Below, in pieces: positions 1,727 through 7,700 of a stretch of DNA of 64,000 nt. The notes under the pieces were generated by a model. The model ran no database searches, had not been told where the DNA came from, and worked only from the letters and a program-made list of their open reading frames with translations. Position 1 is the first letter of the stretch. Every line of letters starts with the position of its first letter. Origin of the DNA: Pagrus major (lineage: Eukaryota; Chordata; Actinopteri; Spariformes; Sparidae); contig NC_133216.1 in assembly GCF_040436345.1 (NCBI RefSeq), positions 17,336,110 through 17,400,109 of the forward strand. Direction: 5' to 3'. The position numbers were made by a program, and so were the translations under genes.

Positions 1727-4700
1727 ATGGCAGCTACCTTCCCCTACAGAGGGGTCCCTGCAGGGATGCCACCAGGTGTACCCCCTCCTACGCCAGTCCC
1801 AGACTACATGTCCGAGGAAAAACTGCAAGAGAAAGGTATGTTGACATTCACTCAATGTAGTACATTCATTGTGTGATTTTTAAAGCTTGAAACGACATAA
1901 TTAATTTTCTCATTTATTTGAAATGTTTTCCAACATTACAGCAAGAAAATGGCAGCAGTTGCAGGCAAAGCGCTACTCAGAAAAGAGAAAGTTTGGCTTT
2001 GTGGATGCTCAGAAGGAAGACATGCCACCTGAGCACGTCCGCAAGATCATCAGGGACCATGGAGACATGACCAATAGGAAGTTTCGTCATGACAAGAGAG
2101 TTTACCTGGGGTAAGAATATATGATACAATAATAAACCAGTTTAGATAGAATGAAATGTGCACGGTTTCTTTTTTTTTTTAAACATATTCACTCATTGGC
2201 TAAGAAGATCCATCACCAGTAACGTAGCTCATCCTGTATATTTCTTTTCATTGAACAGTGCTCTCAAGTACATGCCCCACGCAGTGCTGAAGCTGCTGGA
2301 AAACATGCCTATGCCCTGGGAACAGATTCGAGATGTGCCGGTCCTCTACCACATCACTGGAGCTATTTCCTTTGTGAATGAAATCCCCTGGGTCATAGAG
2401 CCAGTCTACATCGCACAGTGGGGGTAAGGAAGTGTGGTTTAGGAGAAGCTAAACACTCCATGCTGTACTGATATGTTATCAAGCGCATTGTAATTTATAT
2501 TTCCACGTATTTATAATAATTGGTTTCCCATATCCTCCTCCCAGCACCATGTGGATCATGATGCGTCGTGAGAAGCGTGATCGTCGGCACTTCAAGAGGA
2601 TGCGCTTTCCACCATTTGATGATGAGGAGCCACCGCTTGACTACGCTGACAACATCCTCGATGTGGAGCCACTGGAGGCCATCCAGATGGAGCTGGACCC
2701 TGAGGAGGACTCTTCATGCGTGGAGTGGTTCTATGAGCACCAGCCCCTCAAAGACACCACCAAGTAAGCCATCATGTCACTCTTTGAAGACTAACACGTT
2801 TGACATATTCAACGAATTTAAACAACAATAACTAATTTGTGCCCTTTTCAGGTTTGTGAACGGCACCACCTACCGCCGCTGGCAGTTCACACTGCCTATG
2901 ATGTCCACACTGTACCGCTTGGCCAATCAGCTGCTGACAGACCTGGTGGATTTCAACTACTTTTATCTGTTTGACCTCAAGGCCTTCTTCACTTCCAAGG
3001 CCTTAAATATGGCCATCCCTGGGGGACCGAAGTTTGAGCCACTGGTCAGAGACATCAACCTCCAGTAAGGCCACTCAACACTTGCACGCTCATATATGTT
3101 AAAACTCTTGTTAGTCTTTTTCCTTAATTTTACATTTGGATCATGTTTTTTGTTGTTGTTTGAGTTGTTATCCTGTTAACCCCAAATAAAAAGAGATACA
3201 AGATCATTTGTGCCATAGCTGATTGGTGTGTTTCTCTTGCAGGGATGAAGACTGGAATGAGTTCAACGACATCAACAAGATCATCATCCGACAGCCTATC
3301 AGGACAGAATACAAAATCGCTTTCCCCTACCTGTACAACAACTTGCCGCACCACGTCCACCTCACCTGGTGAGAAATGAATGAGTTAATTTTAAAGTTGA
3401 AATTATAACAACAAAAGATGTGAAATGCCCCTAAACCTCTTTGCTCACTCGTTTACTAAATTGGCTACAACATCTTTCACACTGGCTGTAAGCAGTGAGT
3501 AGATACTCATGACTTTATCCCTGCAGGTATCATACACCAAACGTGGTGTTTATCAAGACAGAGGATCCAGATCTCCCAGCGTTCTACTTTGACCCGCTGA
3601 TCAACCCCATTTCACACAGACATTCTGTCAAGGTAAGTGATGACAGTGGCTGAATATCCACCTTTTGACTTTAGTAGAAAACATCATGTGAAATTTTGAA
3701 TGAAGACCTCTTACAAAGGCGCACTTGCATTGGTCTGCTTGTTTGTGCGTAACAAATGGAGGAATATCGAAATGAACAGTGATTCTTTTTATCCTGGCTG
3801 CAGCTGCAGTTGGTCCGTCACTGTTCGAATATTACTTCAATTATTGAAAGTTTTAAGTTCAAATTGATTTTAAATGGAGATCACTTTTGTTTACAATTCA
3901 CTTATTTTTACAAGTCAGCTCAACCTTAGATACTTAATATATGTATTCTTCTTTCCTCCGCTCAGAGTCAGGAGCCTCTGCCTGATGACGATGAGGAGTT
4001 TGAGCTTCCTGAGTATGTGGAGCCCTTCCTCAAGGAGACTCCACTCTACACAGACAACACGGCCAACGGCATTGCTCTCCTGTGGGCACCGAGGCCCTTC
4101 AACCTCAGGTCGGGGCGTACAAGGCGTGCCATTGATATCCCCCTGATCAAGAACTGGTGAGCAAACTACTGACATGTTTGAATATACTTACTGATAAAAA
4201 AAATGGTTTAATTTATATAATTCAGACATGCAATGATCATTTTTGAGAAACTCTAAATGTCGGGTGATAATTATTCTACAGGTACCGTGAGCACTGCCCA
4301 GCAGGACAGCCAGTCAAAGTGCGAGTGTCATACCAGAAACTGCTCAAGTACTATGTGCTCAATGCACTCAAACACCGACCACCAAAGGCTCAGAAGAAGA
4401 GGTGAGCATCATTACACGCTTTGTTCAGATTTCCTGTTAACCCATTTTTCTACGTTTAAGCTGTTTTTTGCTCACCAATCAGTATTTTTTCTCTGAAGAT
4501 TATCCTCTTTGGTCTTTCAGGTATCTGTTCCGCTCCTTCAAGGCCACCAAGTTCTTTCAGTCCACCAAGCTGGACTGGGTGGAGGTGGGGTTGCAGGTTT
4601 GCAGACAAGGCTACAACATGCTCAACCTGCTTATCCATCGTAAGAACTTAAACTACCTGCATCTTGACTACAACTTCAACCTGAAGCCTGTCAAGACACT

Positions 4701-7700
4701 GACCACAAAGGTAAAGTCTCCAGGGCAGATCCACCCGTTTTTACTCCTTAAACATTGTTTTCTGCCTACATGATCAATTAGAATGTATATTAAATGTTTC
4801 TAGTTTTGAATGAAGTCCTCTTACAAAGGCGCACTTGCATTGGTCTGCTTGTCTGTGCGTAAGAACTTGAGGAATATTGAAATGAATGGTGACTGTTTTT
4901 ATTCCTGGCTGCAGCTGCAGTTGGTCCTTCACTGTTCAGATATTGTTTACATTTTTTAAAGTTAAGAGTTCAACTTGATTTGATGTGAAACCGGATCATT
5001 TTTCTTAAAATTTCTTTTTATGGGTCAACTTACTAACTTTTTATTGTAATTTCCTGCTCTGAATCAATTTGAGGAGTTTGAGCTTCTTGACAACTGCAAC
5101 TAAGTTCTTGTTTCTCTCCCCCAGGAAAGAAAGAAGTCTCGATTCGGCAATGCCTTCCACTTGTGCAGAGAGGTGCTGCGTCTGAGCAAGCTGGTGGTGG
5201 ACAGCCACGTGCAGTACAGACTGGGAAATGTCGATGCCTTCCAGGTGAGTTCAGTAAAGAAACTGCACACCAGAACAATATTTTACTTCTACTGGGCAAG
5301 GGTACTAACACAGCTTAACTACTACTTAATGTGTAAGACACAAGGATGAACTTTTAGGCCATTTTGATGATTCTTTCACTTTTCTAAAGTCAGCTCTTTG
5401 CTGTTTAGAAGGTAGCCTGTTTTTTGTATTTGTCAGAAATGTTTTTGAAGTTTATTTTACAGTATTTCACATTTGACTAATACTTGAATTTCCCCTCTGT
5501 TGTAGTTGGCTGATGGGCTGCAGTACATCTTCGCTCATGTAGGTCAGTTGACAGGCATGTACCGCTACAAGTACAAGTTGATGAGACAAATCAGGATGTG
5601 CAAAGATCTGAAGCATCTCATCTACTACAGGTTCAACACTGTAAGTAAACTTGGTGTATTTTATCTGCCAACCTTTTTGTATTTTGTTCAGTGTCCTTAA
5701 GAAAAGATTTGTCACCAGCTTGGCATCGAAAAATAAGATGTGCGTTTTTTTTCTTATGGATCAGGGTCCTGTGGGCAAGGGCCCAGGTTGTGGCTTCTGG
5801 GCTCCCGGCTGGAGAGTGTGGCTGTTCTTCATGAGAGGAATCACTCCGCTGTTGGAGAGGTGGCTGGGGAATCTGCTGGCCAGGCAGTTTGAAGGTATGC
5901 ATAAACACCTCTCCATGTTTTTCTGATGGCCACGTTTATTTCAGCAACAAAGTGGTATGATGCACTGAGGTTTGCTTCATTTAAGCAGCAACTGTTTCCC
6001 CCAACAGGACGTCACTCTAAGGGCGTAGCCAAGACGGTTACCAAACAGCGTGTGGAGTCTCACTTTGACCTGGAGTTGCGTGCTGCTGTGATGCACGACA
6101 TCTTGGACATGATGCCCGAGGGCATCAAACAGAACAAGGCCAGAACCATCCTGCAGCACCTCAGTGAATCCTGGAGGTGCTGGAAGGCTAACATCCCGTG
6201 GAAGGTCAGTTACAGAGATCACTTCCACATTAATAAAAGACGATGATTAATCAGATAATCCTTTAAGAAATTCTCCATTTTAGGATTCGTGAAGTAAAAT
6301 GTTACATGCCTGGGCTCAGTTTGAGTGCTTAAAGTGTAACATCACTTGGACTGCTTCAGATTGAGTTTGTGTTTGTTTGTGTTCTGATCGGTTTTTCTTA
6401 TCTGTCTTGGCATATGTGTTAGTTGTCGTTAGAAATGTTACAATACAACATTTTCCTTTAGTTTAAGACCTAACATTTCTTATACAATACAGAACTGATT
6501 GAAACAGTTCAAAACGTGTCTCTTTTTTAAAGTTGCGTAAGAATGAACTAAATACTGATTCTTAATTCCCACCCCCTCCATCATACAGGTGCCAGGCCTG
6601 CCCACTCCCATTGAGAACATGATCCTGCGCTACGTGAAAGCTAAAGCTGACTGGTGGACCAACACTGCCCACTACAACCGTGAGCGAATCCGCCGTGGAG
6701 CCACTGTAGACAAGACAGTGTGCAAGAAGAACCTGGGGAGGCTGACTCGTCTGTACCTGAAAGCTGAGCAGGAGAGGCAGCACAACTACCTGAAGGTAAC
6801 GCACAGAAAAAAGCTCCAAAAGGAAACACTAAGAACACACTTTCCAATGAAATATAGGTTGGACTGTTAAGTTGTTCAATTTCATTTTAGAACTTTTTGG
6901 TCTCATACGTGTAACTGATTATCAATGTGCTGCCTTTAGCAGATGAGGAAAGATGAATATAATGATCTCACAGAAATTCCCAGTGACGTTTTGAATGACG
7001 TTTTGAATGAAGTCCTCTTACAAAGGCGCACTTGCATTGGTCTGCTTGCCTGTGCGTAAGAACTGGAGGAATATTGAAATGAATGGGGACTCTCAATCAT
7101 CACTGGCTGCAACTGCAGTTGGCCCGTCACCTTTCAGATATTACTTCTGATGAGATAAACTATGATGTCTTGCTACATTTTTTTTTTAATTCCTCACATC
7201 TGTATTTCCTATAAACGACTAAATATATGAAGAGGTAATTATAGCTATTGCCTCTATTCATCAAAGTGTTAATGTTCTGCCTACAGGATGGCCCCTACAT
7301 CACAGCTGAAGAGGCTGTAGCCATTTACACCACCACTGTTCATTGGCTGGAGAGTCGGCGGTTCTCGCCCATCCCCTTCCCTCCGCTGTCCTACAAACAT
7401 GACACCAAGCTGCTCATCCTGGCCTTGGAGAGGCTCAAGGAGGCGTACAGGTAAATTTCATCATGACCACCTTTTATCTGCAAATGTTTTTCACAAAAGA
7501 CAACGCACAAGTGTCCGAATGTTTTTTTTCTCTGCATCATTATTTCGTATTTCTGTGTCTCGTAGTGTGAAGTCTCGTCTGAACCAGAGTCAGAGGGAGG
7601 AGCTGGGGCTGATAGAGCAGGCGTACGACAATCCTCACGAGGCCTTGTCCAGGATCAAACGTCACCTGCTCACCCAGAGAGCCTTCAAAGAGGTCAGGAC

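Follow-up and report, generated by a model that had tools for sequence, protein, structure and literature searches.

Box H/ACA small nucleolar RNAs (snoRNAs) are, as a class, stable RNAs bound by dyskerin, NHP2, NOP10 and GAR1. Among them, SNORA38 (ACA38; Rfam RF00428) has PRRC2A as its human host gene, and SNORA38B is hosted by NOL11. Here we describe three SNORA38-like H/ACA snoRNA candidates, labelled copies 1-3, in three introns of the core spliceosome gene prpf8, within a 64-kb stretch of Pagrus major DNA hereafter called the window, and a fourth copy elsewhere in the genome. The prpf8 copies resemble SNORA38 in aligning to the full length of its model, in a near-identical lower stem and 5′ pocket, in the 14-nucleotide (nt) spacing from the upper stem to box H and in lying sense within introns. 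They differ from it in scoring about half the Rfam cut-off, in a diverged upper stem-loop and 3′ hairpin, in ATA for ACA, in ATATTG or ATATCG at box H, and in having prpf8 as host. H/ACA copies spread over separate introns of a single protein gene have a precedent in chicken GGgACA39, placed in introns 7 and 9 of NAP1L4 by the available part of PMC2653536; prpf8 has three. Human H/ACA copies, unlike C/D copies, tend toward different hosts (PMC8178906, in excerpt). In RMBase v3.0, SNORA38 counts as an orphan; the sites predicted for it are Psi2632 of 28S ribosomal RNA (rRNA) and one in MRPS21 mRNA (PMC10767931, in excerpt). Among 5.39 million open papers (not subscription papers or annotation databases), a search of the full text found none that joins SNORA38, PRPF8 and snoRNA, and prpf8 goes without mention in the available parts of PMC6954239, PMC2653536, PMC3511168 and PMC8178906. 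The kind of RNA, SNORA38-like, is known; the initial annotation of the window, which was aware of no named snoRNA in PRPF8 introns, stands as to the host, for which we found no report, but not as to the family, which has a name.

The candidates and their host lie in the window as follows.

1727-16654, plus strand: prpf8 coding span, from a script gene model starting at the ATG at 1727, with the stop at 16652-16654 read by eye
3706-3834, plus strand: copy 1, SNORA38-like H/ACA snoRNA candidate in intron 7 (RF00428 model 1-131, 30.8 bits)
4816-4945, plus strand: copy 2, SNORA38-like H/ACA snoRNA candidate in intron 10 (RF00428 model 1-131, 33.0 bits)
7013-7143, plus strand: copy 3, SNORA38-like H/ACA snoRNA candidate in intron 15 (RF00428 model 1-131, 34.4 bits)

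The exons that flank intron 10 match Prp8 (E = 2.2e-68 for the best chain, 7.9e-65 for hPrp8 3jcr_A), and the identity of the gene rests on this one stretch. The script gene model is approximate (2103 codons, with some later exons missed, a few borders shifted and a wrong last exon); the borders of introns 7, 10 and 15 and the last exon were inspected by eye. Model and inspection agree that the copies occupy introns 7 (3633-3965), 10 (4711-5124) and 15 (6796-7286), as first annotated, when coding introns are counted. At 333, 414 and 491 nt, these are among the longer introns of prpf8. The sequence near 842-1715 suggests a non-coding exon 1, in which case the introns would be numbered 8, 11 and 16 in the transcript.

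That the three introns carry homologous segments on the sense strand was borne out by a direct-repeat search of window positions 1-20000, in which the copies are the first two families. Family D1, at 3694, 4804 and 7001, has 90% and 85% identity to its first copy over 99 nt, and family D2, the 3′ part of the copies, has 82% and 60% over 85 nt. The repeated unit takes in the 12 nt 5′ of the segments (TTTTGAATGAAG; 11/12, 11/12 and 12/12 identical in the three comparisons) and fades downstream, where the 40-column 3′ flank is identical at 28/40 positions between copies 1 and 2 and at 17/40 and 15/40 against copy 3. Read by eye, the shared 5′ flank of copy 3 is briefly duplicated in tandem at 6988-7012 (GTTTTGAATGAC GTTTTGAATGAAG). 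A model built from the three copies gives no further match up to E = 10 in the 64-kb window.

Running cmscan against 4,227 Rfam families, as the initial annotation had proposed, returns SNORA38 for all three segments, below the cut-off of 60 but covering model positions 1-131 of 131 on the sense strand, with termini near those of the initial annotation. For copy 3, the Rfam match stops at 7141; the match to the model built from the three copies spans 7013-7143. The E-values for copies 3, 2 and 1 are 0.0037, 0.0083 and 0.029 in the 64 kb, and 0.00021, 0.00047 and 0.0016 in a 3.65-kb stretch. We do not take these values alone as proof, because among the matches considered, up to E = 5, a MIR4380-like palindrome in the window is equally strong (E = 0.002); the homology to the fourth copy and the covariation described below decide. 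High E-values mean little in any case: of 14 prokaryote genomes used as a control, 10 also have matches to the SNORA38 model up to E = 10, none of them above the cut-off. Taken with those two lines of evidence, the three copies are almost certainly homologous to SNORA38.

The genome (786 Mb, 25 contigs) holds one more copy. BLAST with copy 2 finds four places, the three prpf8 copies and one on contig C1; its first look gave four candidates, all scored, and repeat counts from it are lower bounds, very common words having been skipped. A genome search with RF00428 up to E = 10 finds the same four places only, with the C1 copy on top (46.7 bits, E = 1e-5), ahead of copy 3 (0.011), copy 2 (0.024) and copy 1 (0.083, rank 4 of 4). 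Since this search scored 42 of 66,353 first-look candidates, weaker family members may be missed.

G000:C1:25251936-25252064 (L010 4936-5064), minus strand: fourth copy, in a crebbp/ep300 intron (RF00428, 46.7 bits)

Three homologous segments of about 130 nt in separate introns of one gene are also what a short interspersed nuclear element (SINE) or another transposon landing in prpf8 introns might leave behind, and the initial annotation had named thousands of genomic copies as the mark of such an element. Many copies on both strands would be expected from it. Both BLAST with copy 2 and the SNORA38 model find only the four places in 786 Mb, and all four copies are on the sense strand of their host genes; at this search sensitivity, we reject a transposon origin as extremely improbable.

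The fourth copy lies inside a 793-nt intron between CBP/p300 exons, on the same strand as its host. The upstream bromodomain exon matches CREB-binding protein (CBP; E = 9e-51), the adjoining downstream exon matches CBP (4e-13 to 1e-12) and, at 6e-12 or weaker, p300; both are also matched by a HAT exon further downstream. Because of these flanking exon matches, crebbp appears more likely as the host than ep300. The copy shares with the prpf8 copies the 5′ fold and the family model, and across 91 letters its identity to copy 2 is 75%. The predicted structure, that of a textbook H/ACA RNA, has a symmetric 5′ pocket and an energy of -46.0 kcal/mol (z = -5.3; 0 of 200 shuffles fold as well), and the boxes are canonical, ATATAA 14 nt past the upper stem and ACA. 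Unlike the prpf8 copies, it thus combines canonical boxes and a stronger fold with other pocket letters and a poorer fit to the 28S stretch considered below. Because it serves as an intermediate, the fourth copy ties the prpf8 copies to SNORA38.

Conservation within the copies is uneven. Compared with the SNORA38 consensus, the lower stem and 5′ pocket are identical at 27/30, 27/30 and 28/30 positions in copies 1, 2 and 3, against 8/26, 8/26 and 7/26 in the upper stem-loop (Fisher p = 5.5e-6, 5.5e-6 and 2.3e-7). The diverged stem stays largely paired: three neighbouring upper-stem pairs have both partners replaced in the fish copies relative to SNORA38 (reached by 5 of 500 shuffles), and four when the fourth copy is added (0 of 500). 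The number of paired cells and the covariation score are reached by 5 and 4 of 500 shuffles, or by 4 and 3 with the fourth copy, and structures shifted by 1-3 columns score far lower. The alignments hold only four and five rows, the Rfam consensus counting as one, so independent events are few. Judged from sequence, fixed guide letters in a stem that is free to change yet paired is the pattern of a guide RNA. Among the copies themselves, the body is more alike than the 3′ flank in copies 1 and 2 (115/128 versus 28/40, p = 0.004), which argues that the body is under constraint, and columns that vary among the three are fewer in the 5′ hairpin (5/56) than in the remaining body (20/73; p = 0.012). 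The full-length SNORA38 matches, the genome search and these compensatory changes together support the original proposal of H/ACA-type snoRNA copies hosted by prpf8.

The predicted folds, with the compensatory changes in the 5′ hairpin, bear out the plan proposed at the outset, two hairpins with pockets joined by a hinge. Every copy is predicted to form the 5′ hairpin and its internal loop; the 3′ one is clear in copies 1 and 2, but the predicted 3′ fold of copy 3 differs. In the folds of copies 1 and 2, the right-hand strand of the lopsided 3′ pocket is left with only some three unpaired bases, which suggests a structural rather than a guiding role for the 3′ hairpin. Its base stem had been offered as evidence of selection on structure. 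At both sites where copies 1 and 2 differ there, pairing is preserved (C-G/U-G and A-U/G-U), but these are one-sided wobble changes; in copy 3 the second site reads G-C and two other pairs are broken. Consisting of two wobble changes, this evidence is weak; the comparison with SNORA38 and the fourth copy is stronger.

The boxes of the prpf8 copies are off consensus, at these positions.

3764-3769, plus strand: copy 1, column homologous to box H, ATATCG, 14 nt past the upper stem
4874-4879, plus strand: copy 2, column homologous to box H, ATATTG, from the alignment to SNORA38 and the fourth copy
7071-7076, plus strand: copy 3, column homologous to box H, ATATTG, adjoined by AAATGA at 7077-7082
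3829-3831, plus strand: copy 1, ATA at the place of the ACA box
4940-4942, plus strand: copy 2, ATA at the place of the ACA box
7138-7140, plus strand: copy 3, ATA at the place of the ACA box

In the box H column SNORA38 has AAAGAA and the fourth copy ATATAA, and the prpf8 letters, ATATCG or ATATTG, fit 5/6 letters of ANANNA. The AAATGA that the initial annotation took for box H is present in all three copies and fits ANANNA, but it starts 20 nt past the upper stem rather than 14, 6 nt after the homologous column; from the alignment, the box H homologue probably lies upstream of AAATGA and is imperfect. At the 3′ end, the ATA plus three bases first described is found in all three copies in place of ACA, which the fourth copy retains. 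ATA is an accepted variant of the ACA box.

The strands of the conserved 5′ pocket are placed as follows.

3712-3719, plus strand: copy 1, left strand of the 5′ pocket, TACAAAGG, identical to SNORA38
3750-3757, plus strand: copy 1, right strand of the 5′ pocket, TAACAAAT, with the 28S fit lost
4822-4829, plus strand: copy 2, left strand of the 5′ pocket, TACAAAGG
4860-4867, plus strand: copy 2, right strand of the 5′ pocket, TAAGAACT
7019-7026, plus strand: copy 3, left strand of the 5′ pocket, TACAAAGG
7057-7064, plus strand: copy 3, right strand of the 5′ pocket, TAAGAACT

Against the SNORA38 pocket, TACAAAGG / TAAGAATT, the left strand is identical at 8/8 positions in all three copies, and the right strand at 7/8 in copies 2 and 3 and 6/8 in copy 1 (TAACAAAT). 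The fourth-copy pocket has different letters, CATAAAGG / TAACGACT, and the pocket of copies 2 and 3 is nearer to SNORA38. The candidate target is a stretch of vertebrate 28S rRNA that we take to read AGUUCUCUUUUCUUUGUG. With this assumed 28S sequence, the pocket of copies 2 and 3 makes eight pairs (two of them G-U) to one side of a U-run and six to the other. Their target score is 30, whereas the maximum in Markov sequences of 7 kb is 20.0 ± 2.1; a score of 30 is reached in 0 of 200 such sequences and by 0 of 1000 shuffled guides. The one guide letter changed in copies 2 and 3, U to C, puts G-C in place of G-U in the pairing with the assumed rRNA. At the target region the Rfam consensus for the eukaryotic large subunit (LSU) reads AAGaGUUuUCUUUuCUucuUAA, and as far as sequence comparison goes the region is real and conserved. 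In a eukaryotic LSU contig of 3,101 nt (L005), whose letters are read rather than assumed, the homologous U ranks first for copies 2 and 3, a rank also reached by 12 of 1000 shuffled guides. We lean towards the U in 28S AGUUCUCUUUUCUUUG as the target of copies 2 and 3.

Several results weigh against the copies being working SNORA38 guides, some on the side of the target and some on that of the RNA. With the assumed 28S sequence, two unpaired oppositions stand beside the candidate modified U of copies 2 and 3. The SNORA38 consensus scores 28 (1 of 200 null sequences, 0 of 1000 shuffled guides), the fourth copy 23 (39 of 200 and 3 of 1000) and copy 1 only 13, which is no fit (200 of 200 and 239 of 1000). 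In L005, the homologous U ranks third for the SNORA38 consensus and the fourth copy and falls outside the top three for copy 1. The assumed 28S stretch has no match in this genome assembly; an LSU search of the assembly gave two short fragments only, one of them about 104 nt long and set in a repeat array, and the target stretch is in neither. The stretch was not found in the text of the papers searched, and the available parts of PMC11724314 and PMC10227372 hold nothing on this 28S site.

The oppositions flanking the proposed 28S U also fit a reading in which the copies are functional H/ACA RNAs whose pocket serves another target, for instance U2 small nuclear RNA (snRNA) or an mRNA, or has an orphan role, the 28S match being coincidental. 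So does the listing of SNORA38 as an orphan with predicted sites at 28S Psi2632 and in MRPS21 mRNA (PMC10767931, in the part available). Of the snRNAs, U2, whose letters like those of the others we take as known, is the best candidate: the right strand of copies 2 and 3 makes seven pairs ending beside U49. The other strand makes three, for a score of 22 against 30 for 28S, and the four further snRNAs score at most 13 among the top three listed. We consider another target unlikely, and snRNA targets are set aside as weaker than 28S. An 18S rRNA target was also tried, on an assumed stretch, CCCUUUGUACAC, complementary to the left strand, and gave no site.

Eukaryotic LSU rRNA is held by L004 (4128-4482, minus strand) and L005 (1-3101), which are prokaryote records (Mangrovicoccus ximenensis NZ_QBKZ01000001.1 and a contig of a Gammaproteobacteria metagenome-assembled genome), probably through contamination or chimeric assembly. 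In this genome, L013 1501-1604 (G000:C10:5724644-5724747) is a stretch of about 104 nt with 86% identity to eukaryotic 28S rRNA, inside a long AAAATCTTAAATTTTTCTC-type repeat array that sits between apparent gene exons.

On the side of the RNA, copies 1-3 (30.8-34.4 bits, about half) and the fourth copy (46.7 bits) all miss the RF00428 gathering score of 60, which is why we call them SNORA38-like homologues and not formal RF00428 members. The fold z-scores of the three prpf8 copies are modest (-2.1, -0.9 and -1.2, with -0.8, -0.5 and +0.3 for the antisense), and fold energy alone is weak evidence for them. One of the five covariation measures, further pair types, is no better than in shuffles (462 of 500, or 480 of 500 with the fourth copy). 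With an imperfect box H and ATA for ACA, against ATATAA and ACA in the fourth copy, the prpf8 copies may be weakened or in decay. They might then be decaying intronic pseudo-snoRNAs, paralogues of the SNORA38-like gene in crebbp/ep300 that multiplied inside prpf8 and no longer form stable ribonucleoproteins (RNPs). Such an origin would account for the off-consensus boxes in all three copies, for fold z-scores weaker than the -5.3 of the fourth copy, for the guide pairs lost in copy 1 and for two upper-stem positions (columns 20/39 and 21/38) that are unpaired in all three prpf8 copies. Plain decay, however, would not spare the 5′ hairpin in the way the distribution of variable columns indicates, nor keep the bodies of copies 1 and 2 better than their flank; and the pocket of copies 2 and 3 is nearer to SNORA38, and fits the assumed 28S better (30 versus 23), than that of the fourth copy. 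We regard the pseudo-snoRNA origin as decidedly unlikely.

Starting from the observed homology, placement, conserved pocket, paired 5′ stem and four genomic copies, we prefer to read the copies as probably intron-encoded SNORA38-like H/ACA guide RNAs, and we predict with good confidence that they are functional H/ACA guides. By analogy with the class, we infer intron release, trimming within a dyskerin RNP and, by copies 2 and 3, pseudouridylation of 28S. The prpf8 pre-mRNA would be spliced and each of the three introns would free an RNA of about 130 nt, which would be trimmed, as H/ACA RNAs are, into a particle that combines two hairpins with dyskerin and its partners. Guiding would be the work of the pocket in the 5′ hairpin: TACAAAGG and AAGAACT of copies 2 and 3 would pair with 28S 5′-AGUUCU-CU-U*-U-UCUUUGUG-3′, and the pseudouridylation site would be a U in the U-run, probably U*. 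Copy 1 keeps the fold and, because two guide pairs are lost, is probably a decaying or retargeted paralogue. A broader scenario, in which, in this fish lineage, the SNORA38 guide entered a core spliceosome gene, tripled there and divided the work, with copies 2 and 3 taking over the ancestral 28S site and copy 1 and the crebbp/ep300 copy drifting elsewhere, is speculative and on balance unlikely. If the guide did move into prpf8 and triple, the pocket that has stayed conserved would reveal which target orphan SNORA38 has throughout the vertebrates, and prpf8 splicing would be coupled to ribosome modification.

These results add prpf8 and crebbp/ep300 as candidate snoRNA hosts. They also point to an annotation gap: in this fish genome, the Rfam cut-off conceals the copies of a vertebrate snoRNA family that is already known. 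A testable target for SNORA38, an orphan according to the part of PMC10767931 available, follows from the conserved pocket set against the diverged stem.

Elsewhere, a pattern match in the viral contig L001 has no Rfam match and was judged by eye to be chance, and pattern matches in the viral contigs L002 and L003 were set down to chance by rough arithmetic. In the window, 23394-23456 is a near-perfect palindromic hairpin of about 23 bp that matches MIR4380 with 35.6 bits on the plus strand and 27.8 bits on the minus strand, against a cut-off of 83, and is perhaps a transposon inverted repeat rather than a MIR4380 microRNA.

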